From Natronosalvus caseinilyticus (GTDB lineage Archaea; Halobacteriota; Halobacteria; Halobacteriales; Natrialbaceae), in NCBI RefSeq assembly GCF_017357105.1, contig NZ_CP071596.1, positions 3,162,001-3,226,000 of the forward strand: a DNA stretch of 64,000 nucleotides, in the 5' to 3' direction. The notes beneath the pieces were generated by a model. That model did not search any database, was not told where the DNA came from, and saw only the letters and a list, made by a program, of their open reading frames with translations. Positions 6,673 through 21,009 of the stretch are shown here, in pieces (the first letter of the stretch is position 1; each line of letters begins with the position of its first letter). The position numbers and the translations under genes are program-made.

Positions 6673-8028
6673 CTACTCGTTCGGGACGTAACCGTGCCGT
6701 TCCTCGAGAACTGGCTCGGGGTCTCGGTAGGCGTCGTCGTGGCGATGACAGAGACTAACCCGATTGCTCTCGCCCACGGGGTAGTACTCGGGGTGTTCGC
6801 TTCCGCAGACGCTTTCGAAGTCTGCAGCCAGCACCTCGAGTGCAGTAGCCTCGTCGTTTCGCCGGACGTGTTCGGCGATTTCGTCGAGGACCGACTGTAC
6901 CTCCTCGGGAACCGAAACGTCGCTGAAGAGTTCGTCGTAAATCTCGTCGATCGTCCCAAATCGAGTCTCCCTTCCGAGTAATTCCTTGACTCGCTCCGAA
7001 ACCGACCGTTCGGCCCGTTCACGTTCTCGAAGGATTTCCTGAAGGGTATCCAGCCGCATCCAGAGTTCGTGCGACAGATGTTTGTACTCTTCTGGCCGGA
7101 TCCGCGCCGGACACCGCGTGCTGAACGGACACCCCTCGGGAGGGAATCGGGGGTTTGGTGGCGTTCCCTGTAGCGTGATTCGGTGTTTCTCCGAGGTTGG
7201 ATCCGGTTCCGGAATCGCCGAGAGCAGCGCGTGCGTGTACGGGTTCGACGGATCGGTGAACAGTTCCTCGGTCGGTCCAATCTCCATGATATTCCCGAGG
7301 TACATGACCGCTACCCGGTCACAGATGTGTCTGACGACCGAGAGGTCGTGGGCGATGAACAGGTAGGTAAGCCCGAACTCGTCCTGTAAGTCCTCGAGGA
7401 GGTTGATAACTTCGGCCTGCACGGAGACGTCCAGGGCACTCACCGGTTCGTCAAGGACGATAAACTCCGGTTCGAGCGTCAGTGTTCGGGCGATACCGAT
7501 CCGCTGGCGCTGGCCGCCGGAGAACTGGTGGGGATAGCGGTAGTAGTGTTCGCGCTGGAGTCCCACCTTCTCGAGGAGTTCGCGAACGTGCTGTCGGCGT
7601 TCGTCGGGTGTCTTCCAGTCGTGAACGTCGAGCGGTTCGCGAACGATTTCGCCGACGGTCATCCGATCGTTCAGGCTCGAGTCGGGATCCTGGAAGACGA
7701 TCTGGGCGTCTCGACGCCAGGCCTTGAGCTCCGGACCGCTGAGTTCCGTGATGTCGGTCCCGTCGAAGCGGATCGCCCCGTCCGTCGCCTGTTCGAGCTG
7801 GACGAGCGTTCGTCCGAGGGTCGTTTTTCCACAGCCGGATTCCCCGACGAGCCCGAGCGTTTCGCCGCGTTTGATTTCGAAGGAGACCCCGTCGACCGCT
7901 TTGACCGGGTTTCCACCCAGTAGGCCCCCTTCGTCGTAGTACGTCCGTAGATTCGATACCTCGACCATGACGTCCTCGTCGGCGCGCATAGCCTCGTCGG
8001 TATCTGTTCGTAGCGATTCCTGGCTCAT
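6673..8028 (-). CDS. dppF: Peptide/nickel-type ABC transporter ATPase, DppF/OppF family
   Basis: One of two ATPases powering peptide uptake. Walker A GESGCGKT is at residues 62-69, the Q-loop at VFQDP (111-115), signature FSGGQRQR at 169-176, Walker [11 protein letters not shown] at 191-200 and the switch His in FIAHD. The C-terminal peptide-transporter domain has four cysteines (300, 306, 408, 427). A paralogous subfamily binds an iron-sulfur cluster through such residues, but here an Arg/Glu-rich, probably helical stretch of roughly 100 residues separates the two pairs. The 451-residue length reflects this insertion. The start overlaps the stop of dppD by four bases, so the operon is translationally coupled. 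Confidence 0.92.
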
Positions 8029-9407
8029 TGATCTTCGTTTGCACCTCCTTCAGTCGACGGCGACTGTGCCGCCTGGTCTGTGTGGTGATCGATCCGTTCG
8101 ATTTCGGACTTCCCCTCGGGATAGAGGAGACAGGCCGCCGTGTGGTCGTCGGCTCCTTCTCGGACCGGAATCGAGACGGGATGGATCTCGTTACAGGCGT
8201 CGAACGCCTCCGGACAGCGCGGCGCGAATCGACAGTACGTCGCCGGCTCGTTCGGCGTCGGTACGTTCCCCTCGATAGTCTGGAGCCGATCTCCGGTCTG
8301 TCTGCCGGGGATCGATTGGAGTAGCCCCTGCGTGTAGGGGTGTTTCGGTGAAGCGAACAGCGTCTCGACGTCCGCCGTCTCGACGATTTCGCCCGCGTAC
8401 ATGACGTTTACCCGATCGGAGACGTCGGCGATGACGCCCATGTCGTGGGTGATGAACATGATCGCCAGGTCGCGTTCTTCCTGCAAGTCCTCGAGCAGTT
8501 CGAGAATCTGTGCCTGAATCGTCACGTCTAGCGCCGTCGTCGGCTCGTCACAGATTAGTACCTCCGGTTCGCAGGCGAGCGCCATTGCGATGACGGCTCG
8601 CTGTCGCATACCGCCGGAGAACTGGTGTGGATACTCTCTGACGCGTCGTCGGGCGTCCGGAATCCCGACGGCCTCGAGTAACTCGACGGCCTCGTTGGTC
8701 GCCTCTCCGCCGGTCATTCCCTGGTGGAGTCTGAGCGCTTCCTTGATCTGGTTGCCGACGGTGTACACGGGGTTGAGACTCGTCAGCGGATCCTGGAAGA
8801 CCATTGCAATCTTGTTGCCGCGCATGGCGCGCTGGGCCTTCCCCTCGAGACGAGTGATCTCCACGAATCCGGACTCGATGCTCGAGGGGTCGTCGGGCGA
8901 CCCTTCGGTCACGAAGACGAAATCGCCGGCGTCGACGAGGCCGAGCGATTCGCCGTAGCCGGAGCCGAGAAAGTCGACGATCGAAGCCTCCTCGGGCGAT
9001 TCGTAGCCGAACGCCGCGGGCGTCATGTCGACTTCGGGCCGGTCGAACTGCTCCGCCGGGTCGTGGGCTTGCTCGAGCGCGTTCACGTCGACTGTGTTCC
9101 CCGAGAACCGCCGGGCGAACTCCCGGACGGTCTCGAGGTGGTGGAAGCGAATGCTGCTGCCGGGCAGGATGCGGCCGGGACTATCGACGAGCCCCATGAT
9201 CGAGCGTGCGGTGACACTCTTTCCGGATCCGCTTTCACCGACGATGCCGACCGTTTCACCGCTTTCGATGTCGTAGGAGATCCCGTCTACAGCCCGAATC
9301 ACCTCCTTGTCGGTGAAGAACGCGGTCTGGAGGTTTCGAACCGAGAGGATCGTCTCAGACTGGCCTGTTTTCGTCTGCGTCGTTTGCGTCTCTGTGTTCA
9401 TGGACAT
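8025..9407 (-). CDS. dppD: Peptide/nickel-type ABC transporter ATPase, DppD/OppD family
   Basis: Partner ATPase of dppF. Walker A GESGSGKS lies at residues 57-64 and the signature FSGGMRQR and Walker [12 protein letters not shown] are intact. Between Walker A and the Q-loop (MVFQDP, 202-207) there are about 90 extra residues (roughly 89-178) compared with ordinary family members, rich in Asp/Glu and containing [11 protein letters not shown]. The C-terminus has the Cys cluster [14 protein letters not shown] and a later Cys. I take the ATG at 9407, which overlaps the permease stop; a GTG at 9410 is in frame. The insertion sits where ATPases contact permeases or each other, so it may be a haloarchaeal interface element. 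Confidence 0.92.
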
Positions 9408-11137
9408 CACGCACCACCTCCGGTCGTCGCCACGTCACCTTCGCCGGCTTCGCTCTCTGGATCCATCGCGTCTCGGATTCCGTCACCGAGGGCGTTGAAA
9501 CCGGTGACGACGAGGACGATCAGGATGCCCGGAATCGTCGCGATGTGCCAGGACTCGGTCGAGACGTACGAGCGACCGTCGGCGATGATTCGACCCCATT
9601 CGGGCGTCGGTGGGTTGATACCCAGACCGAGGAACGAGAGAGCGGCGGTGACGATGATAACGCCGCCCAACAGCAACGATGCGTAGATCATGATGTAGCT
9701 GAAGATGTAGGGCGCCATGTGTTTTCTCATCGTCATCATCGGCGTTTGCCCGTAGCTCTTCGCGGCGTCGACCCACTCCTGTTCGGCAACCTGGAGCGAG
9801 GGGCCGCGTATCGAACGCCATAATCCTGGCCAATACAGGCCAGCGAAGATGAGCGCCAGGAGTAACCCGCCGTTGTAATAATCGGCAATCGGGTGATTCC
9901 CCTGCTGGAACACGACCGAGAGTAACAGGACCATCAGGAACACCGGAACGGCGATGAGCGTATCGCTGACGATCACAGTCGCGAGGTCGACCAGTCCCTT
10001 GTAGTAGGCGGTGAGGAGGGACAATCCCAGCGCGATGAGCGTCGCCAGTCCGATCGAGACGATACCGATAACGAGCGATGTCCGGGCCCCGAAGACGAGG
10101 TACGTGAACAGATCCTTCCCGTCACTGGTCGTCCCGAACGGTGCCCACCGATCGTAGTTATCGTAACTCAGCGGACCAACAGGATCGGACCCCTGAGACC
10201 GGGCATCGAGGTTTGCCGTCCCGTGGTTGACCGTTTCGAGTTCACCGGTCTCCTGGTCCAGGTACTGGAACTCGTGGCCGTACGGACTGTATATGTTCTC
10301 TTGCGGACCGACCGGACCGAGCGCCGGTGCCCACAACGCCATTACCACGAACATGAAGACAACGAGGAGTCCAAAGATCCCCCAGTAGTGGTCCCGGAAC
10401 CGGTTGACTGAATCGTCTCGGGGCGTCCAGTCGGCCTCCCGATAGTGTTCCCGGAAGATCGTATACCCCTTCCAGAGCCACACGAGCGCTGTGAAGGCGT
10501 ACACGTAGACGAGGACGACCCGAATCGCCCAGGCCCATGCCGGAGACAGCCCCAGGAAGGTTCCTTCCCAGCCGCCACCGGGCGTTCGGTAGCCTTGGTT
10601 CGGAATCGTTTCCGGGCTCGTAATCGACCACAGCGACGCGATCCACTCGAAGAACGCCGTTAGTGCACCGACGACGAGGTCGACGGCGATCTCGGCTGGC
10701 GTCATGGTCACGAGGAACGTTACCGCTGTTAAAACGGCGAGCAAGATAATTCGCTCGAGCCGTTCTTCGGTCACGTAAGTGCTTTCGAACCGATCGTGGT
10801 GAATTCCGAATCGATCGGCGAGTGAGCCGGTGACGACCGTCGCTCTGAGAATCAACGTGACGACCGACAGGATGAGCACCGCGGTGACTGCGAACGAAAT
10901 CTCGGCGGCGATCAGTCCGGCCGAGCCGTGTACGTTTCCGTAGACCCAGCCGGGAATCGCGGCGAATCCGGCCAGAGCGACGCGGATTGCGCCACCCATT
11001 TTTACGACGCCCGCTCCGACGCGACCCAACTCGAGCAGGATCAAAATTGCTATTCCGGCGGCCCAGATCGCGGCCGGACGCGGGTTTGCGGCGATTCGTT
11101 CACGAAGTGTCGTCCCCTCGTCTAGCTCGGAACTCAT
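9407..11137 (-). CDS. dppC: Peptide ABC transporter permease, DppC/OppC family (long form)
   Basis: A 576-residue inner-membrane permease, much longer than the usual 300. The first 230 residues carry several extra hydrophobic segments before the conserved core. The core has a membrane segment after WTPRDDSVNRFRDHYWG, an extracytoplasmic loop of about 80 residues, and the permease signature near the EWVDAAKSYGQTPMMTMRKH coupling helix, which docks onto the ATPases. It ends GDGIRDAMDPES. The start overlaps the dppB stop by four bases and its end overlaps dppD, so it is an internal operon gene. Confidence 0.9.
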   Translation of the reverse strand: MSSELDEGTTLRERIAANPRPAAIWAAGIAILILLELGRVGAGVVKMGGAIRVALAGFAAIPGWVYGNVHGSAGLIAAEISFAVTAVLILSVVTLILRATVVTGSLADRFGIHHDRFESTYVTEERLERIILLAVLTAVTFLVTMTPAEIAVDLVVGALTAFFEWIASLWSITSPETIPNQGYRTPGGGWEGTFLGLSPAWAWAIRVVLVYVYAFTALVWLWKGYTIFREHYREADWTPRDDSVNRFRDHYWGIFGLLVVFMFVVMALWAPALGPVGPQENIYSPYGHEFQYLDQETGELETVNHGTANLDARSQGSDPVGPLSYDNYDRWAPFGTTSDGKDLFTYLVFGARTSLVIGIVSIGLATLIALGLSLLTAYYKGLVDLATVIVSDTLIAVPVFLMVLLLSVVFQQGNHPIADYYNGGLLLALIFAGLYWPGLWRSIRGPSLQVAEQEWVDAAKSYGQTPMMTMRKHMAPYIFSYIMIYASLLLGGVIIVTAALSFLGLGINPPTPEWGRIIADGRSYVSTESWHIATIPGILIVLVVTGFNALGDGIRDAMDPESEAGEGDVATTGGGA

Positions 11138-12189
11138 TGATCGTACCCCACACGCGGATCTAGAATCGTGTACAGGAGGTCCTGTATGATATTCATACTA
11201 ATCGTTATGATGGTGAATATGTACACCAGTGCTCCTGCGAGCGGCAAGTCACCCTGCGTCAGCGAGATGAAGTACAGCCGACCGAGTCCGTTGATACCGA
11301 AGAGGACCTCGACGATGACCGACCCGCCCAGAAGCAAGAACGCTTCGTTAGTAATGATCGGCACTAGCGGAATCAACGCGTTCCGGAAGACGTGCTTCCA
11401 GATGATGACCCGGTTCGAGAGTCCCTTCGCCTTCGCCGTCTCGACGTAGTTTGAGTTGATCGTCTCGAGCATTGCCGTTCGTCCAATTCGGAGTTCGGTG
11501 GCCATCGACGCCGAGCCGAGGACGAGCGCCGCCGGAAGGATTACTTTGATTGCAACGGCGAGCGTCCCCCCGTCGAAGAAGAACCCGCTCGGGACCGGGA
11601 GCAACTGTTCGAAGCCGATGAAGTCGAGCGGTGGCGTGCCGATGATGCTCCTGATATCGGGACCGAGAGTGTACCAGTCGAACCCGAGGAACCCCCCACC
11701 CTGCGTTCGACGCAGAACGGCGAGGAACATGATTGCGAGCCAGAAGTTCGGCATCGCCAGCCAGACGATTCCCGAAAATGAGGCGATGTAGTCGCCCCAG
11801 CTGTTCGAGTTGAGCCCGGCGTAGAACCCGAGCGGGATGCCGATGAACAGCGGGAGCAGGATCGCCCAGAATCCGAGCCAGATCGTTCGTGGCGCGTAGA
11901 TCCTGATCATCGACGTTACGGATCGACCCCGCTGGATGACCCACGATTGGCCGAGGTCGAAGGTGATCAACCCGACCATAAAGTCGATGTACTGTTGCCA
12001 CAGCGGCTCGTTCAAGCCCATGTTTTCGCGAATCTGTGCTGCTGCTGCGCCGCTCGCCTCTGGCCCGAGCATCGCTGCGACCGGGTCGAGCGGTCCCATT
12101 CTGAGGATGACGAACAGCATTGTCATCACGAGGAAGAGGACCGGAATTGAGAGCAAGACCCGCTGGAAAAAGTATCGCCAGCGACTCAT
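11134..12189 (-). CDS. dppB: Peptide ABC transporter permease, DppB/OppB family
   Basis: A 351-residue permease with the family N-terminus (first membrane segment VLLSIPVLFLVMTMLFVILR, then a GPEASGAAAAQIRENMGLNEP loop) and five more hydrophobic segments. The coupling helix is YVETAKAKGLSNRVIIWKHV, with the FRNALIPLV continuation, and the protein ends TILDPRVGYDQ. It pairs with dppC to form the channel. It follows dppA after 156 bases containing a hairpin and overlaps dppC by four bases. Confidence 0.93.
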   Translation of the reverse strand: MSRWRYFFQRVLLSIPVLFLVMTMLFVILRMGPLDPVAAMLGPEASGAAAAQIRENMGLNEPLWQQYIDFMVGLITFDLGQSWVIQRGRSVTSMIRIYAPRTIWLGFWAILLPLFIGIPLGFYAGLNSNSWGDYIASFSGIVWLAMPNFWLAIMFLAVLRRTQGGGFLGFDWYTLGPDIRSIIGTPPLDFIGFEQLLPVPSGFFFDGGTLAVAIKVILPAALVLGSASMATELRIGRTAMLETINSNYVETAKAKGLSNRVIIWKHVFRNALIPLVPIITNEAFLLLGGSVIVEVLFGINGLGRLYFISLTQGDLPLAGALVYIFTIITISMNIIQDLLYTILDPRVGYDQ

Positions 12190-12345: not shown

Positions 12346-14193
12346 TTATTCTTCGTTTTCGAGTTCGGCTTCCCAGTTGAGGTAGTAGCCGTCCGCTTCT
12401 CCCTGGGAGATCAGATCGGTGTTGGTGTTGGCCGGTTCGAAGCCGAACAGGCCGTAGGCGACCGAGGGGTAGCTCCAGATCCAGCCGAGCGAGTACATTT
12501 CGAGGTCGCCGTCCTGACCGCGGCTGATCAGCGTGGAGAACTCTGCCTCCTCGGTATCCAACTCGATTCCCAGGTCCGAAACCTTGTCTCGAGTGATTCC
12601 TGCGGCTTCCGAGAACGTCTCGCTCTCGTAGGTCGTCAGCGTCAGCGCGAACGGATCGTCTGCCGTGTGGCCGCCCTCTTCGAGAACCTGCTGTGCGGAC
12701 TCACGGTCGGTATCGTTTGGCGAGTACTGCCACTCGTCGACGAAGGTCTGGTAGGCCTCGTTTCCACCCGGGAAGATTCCCGGCGGCGTGAAGCTGAACG
12801 CTTCGACTCCGCGTCCTTCGAAGACCTGGTTGATGAGTTCTTCGTGGTCGGTGACGTACGCCATCGCCTGCCGGACCGGCTTCGGCACCTTGGCGGCGTT
12901 GAACGCGAAGTAGAACGTCGACATCTCGCTCACGCCGAGGTAGTTGACGACGGTTTCGCCGTCTTCGAGGGGACCGTAGGTCCCGACGTCGCGACCCATG
13001 TCGTCCTCCTCGGCGTCGATGTTCTCCTGGTCGTAGTACGCCGTTGGAATGCCGAAGATGTCGGCGTTTCCTTCGTTGACGTACGTCCAGATGGTCTCGT
13101 CGTCCTCGATGACCTGCCAGTGGATGCGGTCGAGGTTCGGCGCGCCGTCGTGGTAGTCGCCGAATGCCGTGAGGATCTGTTCCGTTCCGGGCTCCCACGT
13201 TTCGAACTGGAAGGGGCCGCAGCCGACCATCACTTCCTGGGAGATCTCCTCCTGGGTGTACTGGCCGTCGTAGCCCTCGATGTCGCCGACGAGTCCCTCG
13301 GGCATCGCCGCGAACGAGTCGTAGGTGAGGATGTCGAGTGCGGACGGCTGTGGTTCCGTGAGCGTCACCTCGAGCGTACGGTCGTCCACGGCCTCGACGC
13401 CGAGGGAGTCCGGGACGGTCGTGGCGTCCTCGCCTTCGCCCTCCGTCTCGTGTTCGACGGCAAGGAAGCCGGGTTCCAGCAGGAAGTTCGCGCGCTCGCT
13501 GGCGGCGGACTCCGCGAGACGACGCCAGGCGTACACGAAGTCGCTGGCGGTCAGCTCGCTGCCGTCGTGGTACTGCGCCTCCTTGATGGTGAACGTGTAC
13601 GTCAGCAGGTCGTCGGAGACGTTGACCTCCTCGGCGAGCTGGTTCTCGACTTCCGGCACGCCGTTGGGGTAGTGCACGAGGTTCTCGTACACCTGGTTGA
13701 TGATGACCGCGGAGGCGGTGTCGGTCGACTGAATGGGGTCCAGCGACGTAACCGTCGAGTTGATCAGGTTCAACTCACCGTCTTCGGTACTGGTCTCGTT
13801 GTGCTGCTGTCGGTGGCCGCCGAGCGAGCCCGTGGGTTCGACATCGACGTGGTCGTACCACATCCGCTCCGTCAGGCCGTGGTACAGCGGCAGCAGGACC
13901 ATGTCATCGCGAACGGCCTCCTCCATCTCGAGGTACGCTTCCATCCGGGTCTCCTCGTCCTCCGGCGCAGGGTTGTCCTGGGCACGTTCCCAGGCCTGCT
14001 GGGCCTTCTCGACGTTGGACAGGTCCCCGTCGCCGTTGCCGTTTCCGTTGCCAGATTCGTTGCCGTTACCGTCGCCGTTCCCATCACCATTTCCTTCGTC
14101 GCCGCCAAAGCACCCGGCCACCGCCGCGGTGGCTGCACCGGCGCTCGTGGCCTTCAGGAATGATCGTCGGGATACACCGTTGTCGTTGGGCAT
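12346..14193 (-). CDS. dppA: Peptide-binding lipoprotein of the ABC importer (DppA/SBP family 5), apparently circularly permuted
   Basis: Extracytoplasmic peptide receptor, 615 residues, Tat-exported (VSRRSFLKA) with lipobox AVAGC (Cys28) and a Gly/Asn/Asp linker to about residue 57. What follows is odd: residues 58-133 (KAQQAWERAQDNPAP, MEAYLEMEEAVRDDMVLLPLY, MWYDHVDV) look like the piece that normally ends this family. The usual N-terminal lobe start (LNLINSTVTSLDPIQSTDTA) only begins at residue 140. The protein then ends at GYYLNWEAELENEE, just where that missing piece should be. ORF start is the ATG at 14193; a longer frame exists but lacks signal-peptide logic. It is first in the dppABCDF operon. 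Confidence 0.9.
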   Translation of the reverse strand: MPNDNGVSRRSFLKATSAGAATAAVAGCFGGDEGNGDGNGDGNGNESGNGNGNGDGDLSNVEKAQQAWERAQDNPAPEDEETRMEAYLEMEEAVRDDMVLLPLYHGLTERMWYDHVDVEPTGSLGGHRQQHNETSTEDGELNLINSTVTSLDPIQSTDTASAVIINQVYENLVHYPNGVPEVENQLAEEVNVSDDLLTYTFTIKEAQYHDGSELTASDFVYAWRRLAESAASERANFLLEPGFLAVEHETEGEGEDATTVPDSLGVEAVDDRTLEVTLTEPQPSALDILTYDSFAAMPEGLVGDIEGYDGQYTQEEISQEVMVGCGPFQFETWEPGTEQILTAFGDYHDGAPNLDRIHWQVIEDDETIWTYVNEGNADIFGIPTAYYDQENIDAEEDDMGRDVGTYGPLEDGETVVNYLGVSEMSTFYFAFNAAKVPKPVRQAMAYVTDHEELINQVFEGRGVEAFSFTPPGIFPGGNEAYQTFVDEWQYSPNDTDRESAQQVLEEGGHTADDPFALTLTTYESETFSEAAGITRDKVSDLGIELDTEEAEFSTLISRGQDGDLEMYSLGWIWSYPSVAYGLFGFEPANTNTDLISQGEADGYYLNWEAELENEE

Positions 14194-17588: not shown

Positions 17589-18572
17589 TCACCGCGATCC
17601 GGTGTCCACTCGAGGATCGAGGAGCGAGTACGCCAGATCCTGGACGACGTTGCCGACGACGCCGAAGGCGACGACGACGACCGTTACGCCCATCACGACG
17701 GGAAGGTCGCGCGTCCAGACGGCGTTGTAGAAGAGCGAACCGATTCCGCCGATGCCGAAGACCGCTTCGATGACGATCACCGAAATCGCGAGCAACGCTA
17801 GCGTCTCCGCGAACACGAGCGAGAGCAACGGGATCGCCGCGTTTCGCAACACGTGTCTGGCGACGTCGACCCGTCCACCCCCTTTCGCGCGAACGAGTTT
17901 GGTGAGGTCCGCGGTGTAGTACTGGCGAGCGTACGCTCGAGCGTAGCTGACGATAGCAGCGAGCAGGGTCGTCGTCACCAGGACGACCGGGAGGACGCGT
18001 CCGTAGAGAAACGGCAACTCGGTCACCGTGATGTAGTTGAACTCGCTGCCCCACCTGAAGGCGGCAGCGGCAGTCGCGGACGCGCTCAGGATCAGGAAGC
18101 CGGCCCAGAAGTTCGGGATCGCAAACAGCAGGTACACCATCCCCGTGGCTCCGTTGCCGCGAATCGAGCCCACGTTCATGGCGGCATAGGCGCCGACGAC
18201 CAGACCGAGCGTCGTCGCCACCACGATCGCCGGGACGACGTACAGCGCTGTCTCGAGGGTGGCCTCGCGGACGAGCGGAAACACGGCCTCGCCGCTCTGG
18301 AAGGAGTTTCCCCACTCCAGCGTGATCATGTTTCCCATCCAGTCGACGTACTGCTCGATGATCGGTCGATCGAGCCCTCGGTCGGCGAGGTACGACTGGC
18401 GAATAGACTCGAGTTCGTCGGGGTCGGCACCGCCGTAGGCTGCGAGTGCGAGCCGCCTATCGAGCACCCAGTCTTCGGTCGCGGCGAACAGTGCGAACAT
18501 CACCGTGAGCACGGCCCAGGCGGCGATCGCCCCCAGTGCGAGACGCCGAGCCAGAATTCGCACCACTCTCAC
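17589..18572 (-). CDS. Peptide-type ABC transporter permease, DppB family (second transporter)
   Basis: A 327-residue permease with six hydrophobic segments, the loop DELESIRQSYLADRGLDRPIIEQYVDWMGN before segment 2, the coupling segment LVRAKGGGRVDVARHVLRNAAIPLL and the family ending YSLLDPRVDTGSR. It is transcribed away from its presumed partners at 18723-22342, sharing a 150-base promoter region with them. In ordinary dpp operons B and C are adjacent on one strand, so this split is unusual. A Tat-like or lipoprotein-encoding partner gene is absent nearby. Confidence 0.9.
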   Translation of the reverse strand: MRVVRILARRLALGAIAAWAVLTVMFALFAATEDWVLDRRLALAAYGGADPDELESIRQSYLADRGLDRPIIEQYVDWMGNMITLEWGNSFQSGEAVFPLVREATLETALYVVPAIVVATTLGLVVGAYAAMNVGSIRGNGATGMVYLLFAIPNFWAGFLILSASATAAAAFRWGSEFNYITVTELPFLYGRVLPVVLVTTTLLAAIVSYARAYARQYYTADLTKLVRAKGGGRVDVARHVLRNAAIPLLSLVFAETLALLAISVIVIEAVFGIGGIGSLFYNAVWTRDLPVVMGVTVVVVAFGVVGNVVQDLAYSLLDPRVDTGSR

Positions 18573-18722
18573 TGGCAGTCACCTGCGAGCGACGCAAACG
18601 TGACGACGGGGTCGCAAATCACGAGTACTGCACACGTGCCAGCCAGGGAACTATGAGTGTTGCGGTCGTGATGGAACAGAAACACTTATTCACAGAGGCG
18701 ACAGGTTCCCGCACGACTCGCA
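18573..18722. promoter_or_regulatory. Divergent promoter of the second peptide transporter
   Basis: This 150-base gap separates dppB-like (minus) and dppC-like (plus) genes. An ACACTTATTC element at about 18682-18692 lies 31-41 bases before the plus-strand ATG at 18723. On the minus strand an ACGTTTGCG lies near 18595-18603, about 25-30 bases before the start at 18572. The shared spacing suggests joint control, but I see no clear palindromic operator. Confidence 0.4.
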
Positions 18723-19961
18723 ATGACGGAATCGGGATCGAACGAACCCTCCAGAGACGAGCCACCGGGGCGGACAGACGTCGCGGCGCTCGAGCAAATC
18801 GACTGGGATCGGGTCGACTCGTCGTCGCGTCGGCTTTCGCCCGAACGAATCGCACTCGTGATCGGCGTCCTTACCGTCGGGTTGGCGTACCTCTACTACC
18901 GATGGAAGGACAGCATCTATCTCGTCTCTCGGTGGTACGTCGGCCCCGAAGATTGGCTGCTGCTGCTCGCCCTGGCCGTGGTCGTCGCCTACGGCGCCGT
19001 TCCGATGGTCCTCGATCCGTCCCGCGGCCGACGACTCCTCGCTCGGCTTCGGCGACGGTGGGCAACCGTCGTCAGTCTCGTGGTCCTCGGCGCCGTTACT
19101 CTCACCGCGCTCTACTCGATGATAACTGGGTTTCAGCCCCGGCTGACGTTATACTCGGGGACGGCCGGAACCGACAAACTCCAGCCGCCGGTCGGCTTCA
19201 GCGGTTCCTACCTGGAAACGGGAAAAGACTGCGTGGGCACGGTTACCGGGGACACGATATACGAACAGCAGTGTCACGGGAGCTGGGAGTACGTGTTCGG
19301 AACCGATCGCTGGGGCTACGAGATGGTCGACCTCCTCGTGGTCGGCGCTCGACCCGTGGCCTACGCCGTGTTCGTCACAGTCGGCATCATCGTTCCGCTC
19401 GCGACGATCGTCGGTCTCGTCGCGGGGTACTACGGGGGCCGTGTCGACGACCTCCTGATGAGCTACGTCGACGTCCAGCTCAGCATCCCGGCGATCGTCA
19501 TCTACATGATCGCGTACCTGTTCATCGGGGACTCATTTTTCGTCCTCCTCGCCGCGTTCGGCCTACTTTCGTGGGGCGGAATCGGCCGAATCGTCCGAAG
19601 CGAGACGCTGCAACGACGGGAGGAAGGGTACGTTCTCGCCGCACGGGTGCTCGGGGCCTCGAGACCGTACGTCCTGCGCAGACACGTCCTGCCGAACGTC
19701 ACCAACAGCGTAATCCCGGCGGCGTTTCACCTGATGGCCGTGCTCGTCCTGACCGAGGCCGCGCTCGCGTTCCTCGGATTCCACGCCACGTTCCAGTCGT
19801 GGGGTATGACGATGGGCGAGGGGCTGTTCAGAGCGGCCCCCCTCGACGCGTGGTGGGTCTCGACGCTTCCCGCCATCGCTCTGGGACTGACCGTCGCGTC
19901 GTTCAAGGTGGCCGGCGACGGACTGCGAGACGCGCTCGATCCACGGGGGACCCATGACTGA
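18723..19961 (+). CDS. Peptide-type ABC transporter permease, DppC family (second transporter)
   Basis: A 412-residue permease with a hydrophilic N-terminal 55 residues, two early membrane segments, an extracytoplasmic loop of about 70 residues with a cysteine pair (DCVG and QQCHG, possibly disulfide-bonded), then the conserved core. The coupling region reads EEGYVLAARVLGASRPYVLRRH and the protein ends DGLRDALDPRGTHD. The stop overlaps the following ATPase gene by eight bases. It would pair with the divergent DppB-like permease. Confidence 0.9.
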   Translation: MTESGSNEPSRDEPPGRTDVAALEQIDWDRVDSSSRRLSPERIALVIGVLTVGLAYLYYRWKDSIYLVSRWYVGPEDWLLLLALAVVVAYGAVPMVLDPSRGRRLLARLRRRWATVVSLVVLGAVTLTALYSMITGFQPRLTLYSGTAGTDKLQPPVGFSGSYLETGKDCVGTVTGDTIYEQQCHGSWEYVFGTDRWGYEMVDLLVVGARPVAYAVFVTVGIIVPLATIVGLVAGYYGGRVDDLLMSYVDVQLSIPAIVIYMIAYLFIGDSFFVLLAAFGLLSWGGIGRIVRSETLQRREEGYVLAARVLGASRPYVLRRHVLPNVTNSVIPAAFHLMAVLVLTEAALAFLGFHATFQSWGMTMGEGLFRAAPLDAWWVSTLPAIALGLTVASFKVAGDGLRDALDPRGTHD

Positions 19962-21009
19962 CGTGGACCCACTGCTCTCCGTCGACGACGTGCACGCTCA
20001 CATCGCGACTGCCGATGGCACCGTCCGGGCCGTCGACGGCGTGAGCTTCGACGTCCAGCCCGGCGAAACCGTCTGTCTCGTCGGCGAGAGCGGGAGCGGG
20101 AAGACGCTGACGTGTGATTCGATCACCGGCCTGATCTCGAGTTCGCAGGTCGACGTCTCCGGCTCGGTGACGTTCGAGGGCGAGGAGTTGCTCTCGGCCA
20201 GCGAGAGCCGGCTTCGATCGATCCGCGGCAACCGGATCGCCTACCTCTTTCAGAACGCCCAGAACGCGCTGGATCCGGTGTACACCGTCGGCGATCAGCT
20301 CGTCGAGGCGGTCACGTTCCACCGGGACGTTAGCGACGAGGCCGCTCGAGAGCGAGCGATCGATCTGCTGCAGACCGTCGGCCTCTCTCGACCGGCGGAG
20401 CGACTCGACGCGTATCCCCACGAGTTCTCCGACGGCATGCGCCAGCGCGTCCTGATCGCCATCGCCCTGGCCGCCGAGCCCGACCTGCTCATCGCCGACG
20501 AGCCGACGTCCGCACTGGACGTCACGATTCAGTCCCGAATCATCGACCTGATCGACGACCTCCGGCGAGAGCGAGCGCTGACGTTGCTGCTCGTTACCCA
20601 CGACCTCAGGGTCGTAGCCTCGCTGGCCGACCGCGTCGTCGTCATGTACGCCGGGAACGTCGTCGAGCGCGGCCCCGTCGAGGCCGTCCTCGAGCGACCG
20701 GGCCATCCCTACACGCAGTCGCTGTTCCGGAGTTTCGTGGGGCAGGGTGGGACGGACGGCTCGGTCGGCCGCACCGAAACCGTCGGACGCAACGAGCCGA
20801 TCCCGCGGGAAGGGTGTCGCTTCCGTCGAGAGTGCCCACACGCCGTCGAGGCGTGTCGCGCCGACGAACCGCCGTTCGAACCGGTCGCCGGCGTCGAAGA
20901 CCACCGTGCGGCGTGCATCTACCACGGCGACCGAAAGGATTCGAGAACGGTCCTCGACACTGCTCCCGACCTCGGCGCTAGCGGGGAGGGGGTGACCGAG
21001 GATGACTGA
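19954..21009 (+). CDS. Peptide-type ABC transporter ATPase, DppD family, with altered signature
   Basis: A 351-residue ATPase with Walker A GESGSGKT (44-51), Walker B LIADEPTSALD and switch His in VTHD. Two key spots depart from the family: the Q-loop reads LFQNAQNALDP instead of FQDPMTSLNP, and the signature reads FSDGMRQR (158-165) instead of FSGGMRQR. Both may weaken ATP hydrolysis in one site. Unlike the dppD of the first operon it lacks the 90-residue insertion after Walker A. Cysteines near 288-310 and 330 keep the family's C-terminal cluster. It overlaps neighbours on both sides by eight bases. Confidence 0.9.
   Translation: MTDVDPLLSVDDVHAHIATADGTVRAVDGVSFDVQPGETVCLVGESGSGKTLTCDSITGLISSSQVDVSGSVTFEGEELLSASESRLRSIRGNRIAYLFQNAQNALDPVYTVGDQLVEAVTFHRDVSDEAARERAIDLLQTVGLSRPAERLDAYPHEFSDGMRQRVLIAIALAAEPDLLIADEPTSALDVTIQSRIIDLIDDLRRERALTLLLVTHDLRVVASLADRVVVMYAGNVVERGPVEAVLERPGHPYTQSLFRSFVGQGGTDGSVGRTETVGRNEPIPREGCRFRRECPHAVEACRADEPPFEPVAGVEDHRAACIYHGDRKDSRTVLDTAPDLGASGEGVTEDD

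Follow-up and report, generated by a model that had tools for sequence, protein, structure and literature searches.

Repeated circular permutation of a haloarchaeal family-5 peptide-binding lipoprotein

The lipoprotein DppA, encoded in a stretch of 64,000 nucleotides of the Natronosalvus caseinilyticus genome (hereafter the window), has very probably arisen by natural circular permutation from an ordinary substrate-binding lipoprotein of cluster C (family 5), and is the predicted binding protein of the dppABCDF importer. Compared with the profile of ordinary proteins no part of it is missing and none is doubled; the order alone is swapped. Similar permutations were found among its haloarchaeal orthologues, where they arose repeatedly and at several loops of the protein.

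Results

The dppA gene (12346..14193, minus strand) is a single intact open frame that starts with an ATG at 14193 and encodes a family-5 (SBP_bac_5) peptide-binding lipoprotein of 615 amino acids. The protein starts with a twin-arginine signal that leads into a lipobox (SRRSFLK ... AVAGC28; 14110..14193, minus strand), both recognised in the sequence; the TAT_signal model PF10518 matches with E 0.00038 and 20.7 bits, slightly below its 22.7-bit cut-off. They are followed by a Gly/Asn/Asp-rich linker of residues 29-57 (14023..14109, minus strand), the apparent tether of the relocated segment described below. PF00496 matches residues 181-585 (E 9e-65, 219.6 bits versus a gathering score of 32.4), and the near-complete genome of 4.2 Mb holds 11 PF00496 matches.

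A profile built only from 67 ordinary orthologues, from body start to end (550 positions), matches DppA in two pieces. Residues 58-138 (the "tail"; 13780..14022, minus strand) correspond to positions 466-548 (91 bits), the C-terminal ~83 positions of ordinary orthologues, and residues 141-610 (12364..13773, minus strand), the body from N-lobe to C-lobe, to positions 1-464 (681 bits). The family-5 order of N-lobe, C-lobe and closing segment is not kept, as the body comes after the closing segment. The natural C-terminus is fused in frame to the natural N-terminus by two residues, 139-140, which form the gap between the profile matches (13774..13779, minus strand), and the chain now stops behind GYYLNW, at the loop that was opened. 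Thus both parts are complete, swapped, in one frame and without a second copy, as in a circular permutant. The preliminary description of this locus had likened residues 58-133 to the segment that closes family-5 proteins, had placed the end of the body where this segment is expected, and had read the arrangement as a circular permutation. Its coordinates were exact (14022-13795 with the ATG at 14193, minus strand), the segment, which reaches to residue 138, does align to the C-terminus of homologues, residues 141-610 end where ordinary proteins continue into it, and the permutation reading is supported. The tails of ordinary and permuted proteins can be aligned over their whole length. A single-sequence search against the PDB shows the swap as well: DppA residues 146-576 correspond to OppA 21-421, and OppA 455-490 matches DppA residues 76-111 weakly (0.3 bits).

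The swap is invisible in an ordinary annotation, where the Pfam match covers the middle domain. This would also suit a different origin of residues 58-138, as an insert, unrelated or duplicated, or as an artefact of assembly, in a protein that has lost its true C-terminal segment. We consider this extremely improbable: the residues match specifically the ordinary C-terminal positions, with the 91 bits given above, a second copy is absent within or beside the gene, and the same order recurs in 46 further proteins from many genera. Chance is excluded by the same order in 47 orthologues and by the clean gap in the closed-junction profile matches, to which we turn now.

Since any permutant must close the natural termini, whichever loop was opened, a profile of the closed junction was searched against 392 haloarchaeal genomes. 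It returned 71 full-length matches that span the joint (E <= 2e-32), while the next best matches were of half length and came from ordinary genes (E >= 5e-24). In the 125 genomes from the family and the 392 from the order that were covered, close matches to DppA were either colinear (permuted) or in two pieces (ordinary). Classification of 151 distinct orthologues gave 77 ordinary proteins, 47 with cut A, among them DppA of the window, 25 with cut B and two with cut C. The permuted order is therefore not universal in the family, whereas universality would have spoken against the earlier reading: 74 of the 151 orthologues have it. In all 74 the ordinary profile is fully covered in swapped order, with overlaps of a few positions at the cuts. 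The joint measures 2-5 residues in most cut-A proteins and 2-22 residues among the permuted proteins. Ordinary examples are L026, L013 (Halobacteriales archaeon QS_8_65_32) and the Halomarina proteins L012, L014 and L016.

The three cuts lie at profile positions ~465 (A), ~342 (B) and ~110 (C). Cut B falls between FPGGxxxYxxHW and the YPYG..EAxxVMEEAG helix, and the cut-B proteins start with the C-lobe half and finish at FPGGxxxYxxHWQG. Cut C falls in the loop preceding LGVEAVDD; the two cut-C proteins (L173, 729-2591, plus strand; L174, 5396-7264, minus strand of their loci) start at the strand before this first-lobe block and finish at an ETE-rich loop. An assignment of 27 divergent loci to cut A was ruled out by the full profile, which placed 25 of them in cut B and two in cut C. 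Two further loci found by the closed-junction search (L232, L233) are also cut B, which is thus present in at least 27 loci (L175-L198, L172, L232 and L233, of families f3, f4, f5 and f12). In a phylum-level search of 197 genomes, the haloarchaeal order included, closed junctions were confined to members of that order. The viral contigs searched contained no relatives, and plasmid records gave no permuted match that covers the query.

In the window dppA heads a dppABCDF operon, in which it is followed on the minus strand by two permease genes, dppB (11134..12189), which served as independent phylogenetic marker, and dppC (9407..11137; PF00528, OppC_N), and by two ATPase genes, dppD (8025..9410) and dppF (6673..8028), both with ABC_tran and oligo_HPY matches. 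Beside this operon the window contains a second peptide-type permease gene set with a DppD-like ATPase, divergently arranged (17589-21009). Whatever the class, dppA is followed in most loci by a dppB orthologue, at a distance of 108-356 bp in the permuted ones. The Tat signal and lipobox are present in 44/47 cut-A, 25/25 cut-B, 2/2 cut-C and 66/77 ordinary proteins. Because operon place and leader are kept, the permuted protein is very probably the binding protein of the operon rather than a fragment or an extra copy. In one locus (L095, G048:C29) all that precedes dppB is a C-terminal remnant of 193 residues from an ordinary dppA, probably a broken gene.

For the number of origins, trees were calculated from homologous columns only, with the segment order as label. 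On a tree of 97 rows the four states require 8 changes. The ordinary order was taken as ancestral, since it is found in the relatives of solved structure and on the remaining branches of the tree. Cut B forms one clade (support 100). A cut-A protein from genome G364 (L106, termed A') falls with both core and tail among ordinary Halomarina proteins, and joining it to clade A was rejected (p-AU 0.0001). The two cut-C proteins stand apart in the tree, and joining them was rejected as well (p-AU 0.011). The minimum is therefore five independent permutations in the orthologous group (A, A', B, C1 and C2), which opened three loops, two of them (A and C) on two occasions each.

Within clade A four ordinary proteins are found (L026, L055, L100 and L101), which suggests either that the chain returned to its ordinary order or that the same site was permuted again. 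The candidate for a reversal comes from the genus of N. caseinilyticus itself: genome G112 has the ordinary order (L026/L142), while five members of the genus, N. caseinilyticus included, and the related genomes G007 and G183 have permuted proteins. The ordinary operon of G112 is nested among permuted ones in the dppB tree, at a depth of two supported forks (96/88 and 98/92). A single clade of all A rows was not rejected by the core only (p-AU 0.069; the core-only AU tests gave p 0.069 and 0.101); monophyly of A was rejected by core plus tail (AU p 0.023) and by the neighbouring dppB (p 0.0235). A single loss explains G112 more simply than separate gains at one site, and we put a reversal inside clade A at even or slightly better, not higher because the backbone of the clade is weak.

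The same weak backbone leaves room for many gains within clade A, none of them undone, with the nested ordinary proteins simply keeping the ancestral order. As L106 demonstrates that site A was certainly used twice, a repeated gain at one site is possible, and this account deserves serious, if lesser, credence. Against it stand the depth at which the ordinary G112 operon is nested in the dppB tree and the count on resolved trees, where one gain and three losses require fewer changes than gains alone. Haloarchaea commonly exchange genes, and the pattern of clade A could also have come about by horizontal replacement between species that carry ordinary and permuted genes, with no further rearrangement. 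The dppA and dppB trees differ slightly as to which relative is closest to the ordinary G112 protein, a difference that would agree with such exchange. However, both tail and core of L026 are closest to clade-A proteins (76% to L047 and 75% to L022, respectively), dppB gives the same picture, and the origins B, C and A' are beyond the reach of this explanation, which we hold to be rather unlikely.

Two distant family-5 paralogues in the genome of N. caseinilyticus provide a strong lead to permutation at a fourth site. L008 (G000:C1:504475-506325; L008:700-2550, plus strand) and L009 (G000:C1, about 3376834-3378738; L009:727-2643, plus strand) match only PF00496 positions 1-282 and 1-284, respectively, and both matches lie at the C-terminal ends of the proteins. 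In comparison with binding proteins in the PDB, residues 76-205 of L008 correspond to the C-terminal third and residues 233-576 to the first two thirds. Relatives of L008 occur in 49/61 genomes searched, and the close ones are mostly colinear with it. Taken together, a picture of frequent and reversible permutation, which occurred at least five times at three loops in the orthologues, was undone at least once in the genus of N. caseinilyticus and reached a fourth site in paralogues, has in our view about an even chance of being correct in all its parts.

Discussion

The permuted DppA would fold into the same bilobed structure and bind peptide as before. Only a few residues bridge the natural termini, and each cut falls in a loop that separates conserved blocks; from this we infer that the fold is retained, as the preliminary description had also supposed. 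AlphaFold models were of low confidence, with a mean pLDDT of 48.3 and 46.7 on shallow alignments of 11 and 5 rows. Alignments to OppA, together with the domain limits of this protein, assign cuts A and B to the second lobe and cut C to the first. The domain limits of EppA were used for the same placement (PMC7312458). The lipid tether would accordingly enter the second lobe in proteins with cut A or B, and another part of the first lobe in those with cut C. By homology, the anchor of DppA in the window probably leads into the second lobe and not the first, and it is plausible that the receptor hangs differently from its lipid anchor, as had been supposed at the outset.

As a likely genetic route, the mature region may have been partly duplicated and then trimmed behind an unchanged Tat/lipobox leader; alternatively, the segment may have been relocated. 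A doubled tail was looked for inside the proteins, remnants of either segment next to the permuted genes and DNA common to both ends of the cut, and none of these was found; nor did a duplicated intermediate appear among the proteins and loci examined. Since the searches for doubled tail, remnants and shared DNA were all negative, we do not favour one genetic mechanism over another.

Ordinary family-5 proteins, that is OppA, DppA, MppA and the ordinary haloarchaeal orthologues, share with the permuted DppA the PF00496 domain and the same segments in full, and the ordinary orthologues have the same Tat/lipobox leader and operon position. They differ from it in the order of the segments and in the point where leader and tether enter the folded domain. 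DNA methyltransferases, too, have one fold in several circular permutations, but there an ancient split defines classes, whereas here the orders differ within one orthologous operon gene and down to a single genus.

Our literature search, with subscription journals mostly outside its scope, yielded no paper that deals with permutation in haloarchaeal or family-5 proteins, and the sole natural circularly permuted binding protein found was TpMglB-2 (Tp0684). Together with its relatives, this protein of Treponema pallidum represents the "type Ic" or "cluster Bc" binding proteins, and structure and biophysics revealed that TpMglB-2 is still bilobed, binds its ligand and closes when the ligand is bound (PMC4990184). 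Like DppA, it is an ABC binding protein that is held by a lipid anchor and naturally circularly permuted. However, its sugar-binding fold is that of cluster B (type I), and it was cut differently, so that the first three strands of the N-lobe stand at the C-terminus (PMC4990184); DppA belongs to cluster C. DppA does not fall under "cluster Bc", since it matches PF00496 and its moved part is the C-terminal one. In TpMglB-2 the permuted part is only 13% identical to the ordinary N-terminus and a fourth hinge crossing was added, while in the haloarchaeal proteins the swap is plain in the sequence and the cuts vary; the available part of the TpMglB-2 report describes neither repeated origin nor reversal (PMC4990184). 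Tethering was suggested there as driver of the permutation (PMC4990184). In the haloarchaea, tethering alone is not the cause, because ordinary and permuted proteins are tethered alike. New in comparison to the TpMglB-2 precedent are the repetition, the several cut sites and a possible reversal.

The swap also affects annotation. Pfam and NCBIfam models pass over it or split the match, and methods that depend on domain order therefore misread such proteins.

Natural circular permutations are usually viewed as single ancient events between distant proteins. The orthologues described here are close and occupy one operon position, and what sets them apart is mainly how the chain is ordered, a change that arose at least five times. 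Sister proteins can thus serve as controls when one asks how chain order affects folding, Tat export, anchoring and transport, and the family constitutes a natural experiment on whether a protein depends on the order of its parts.
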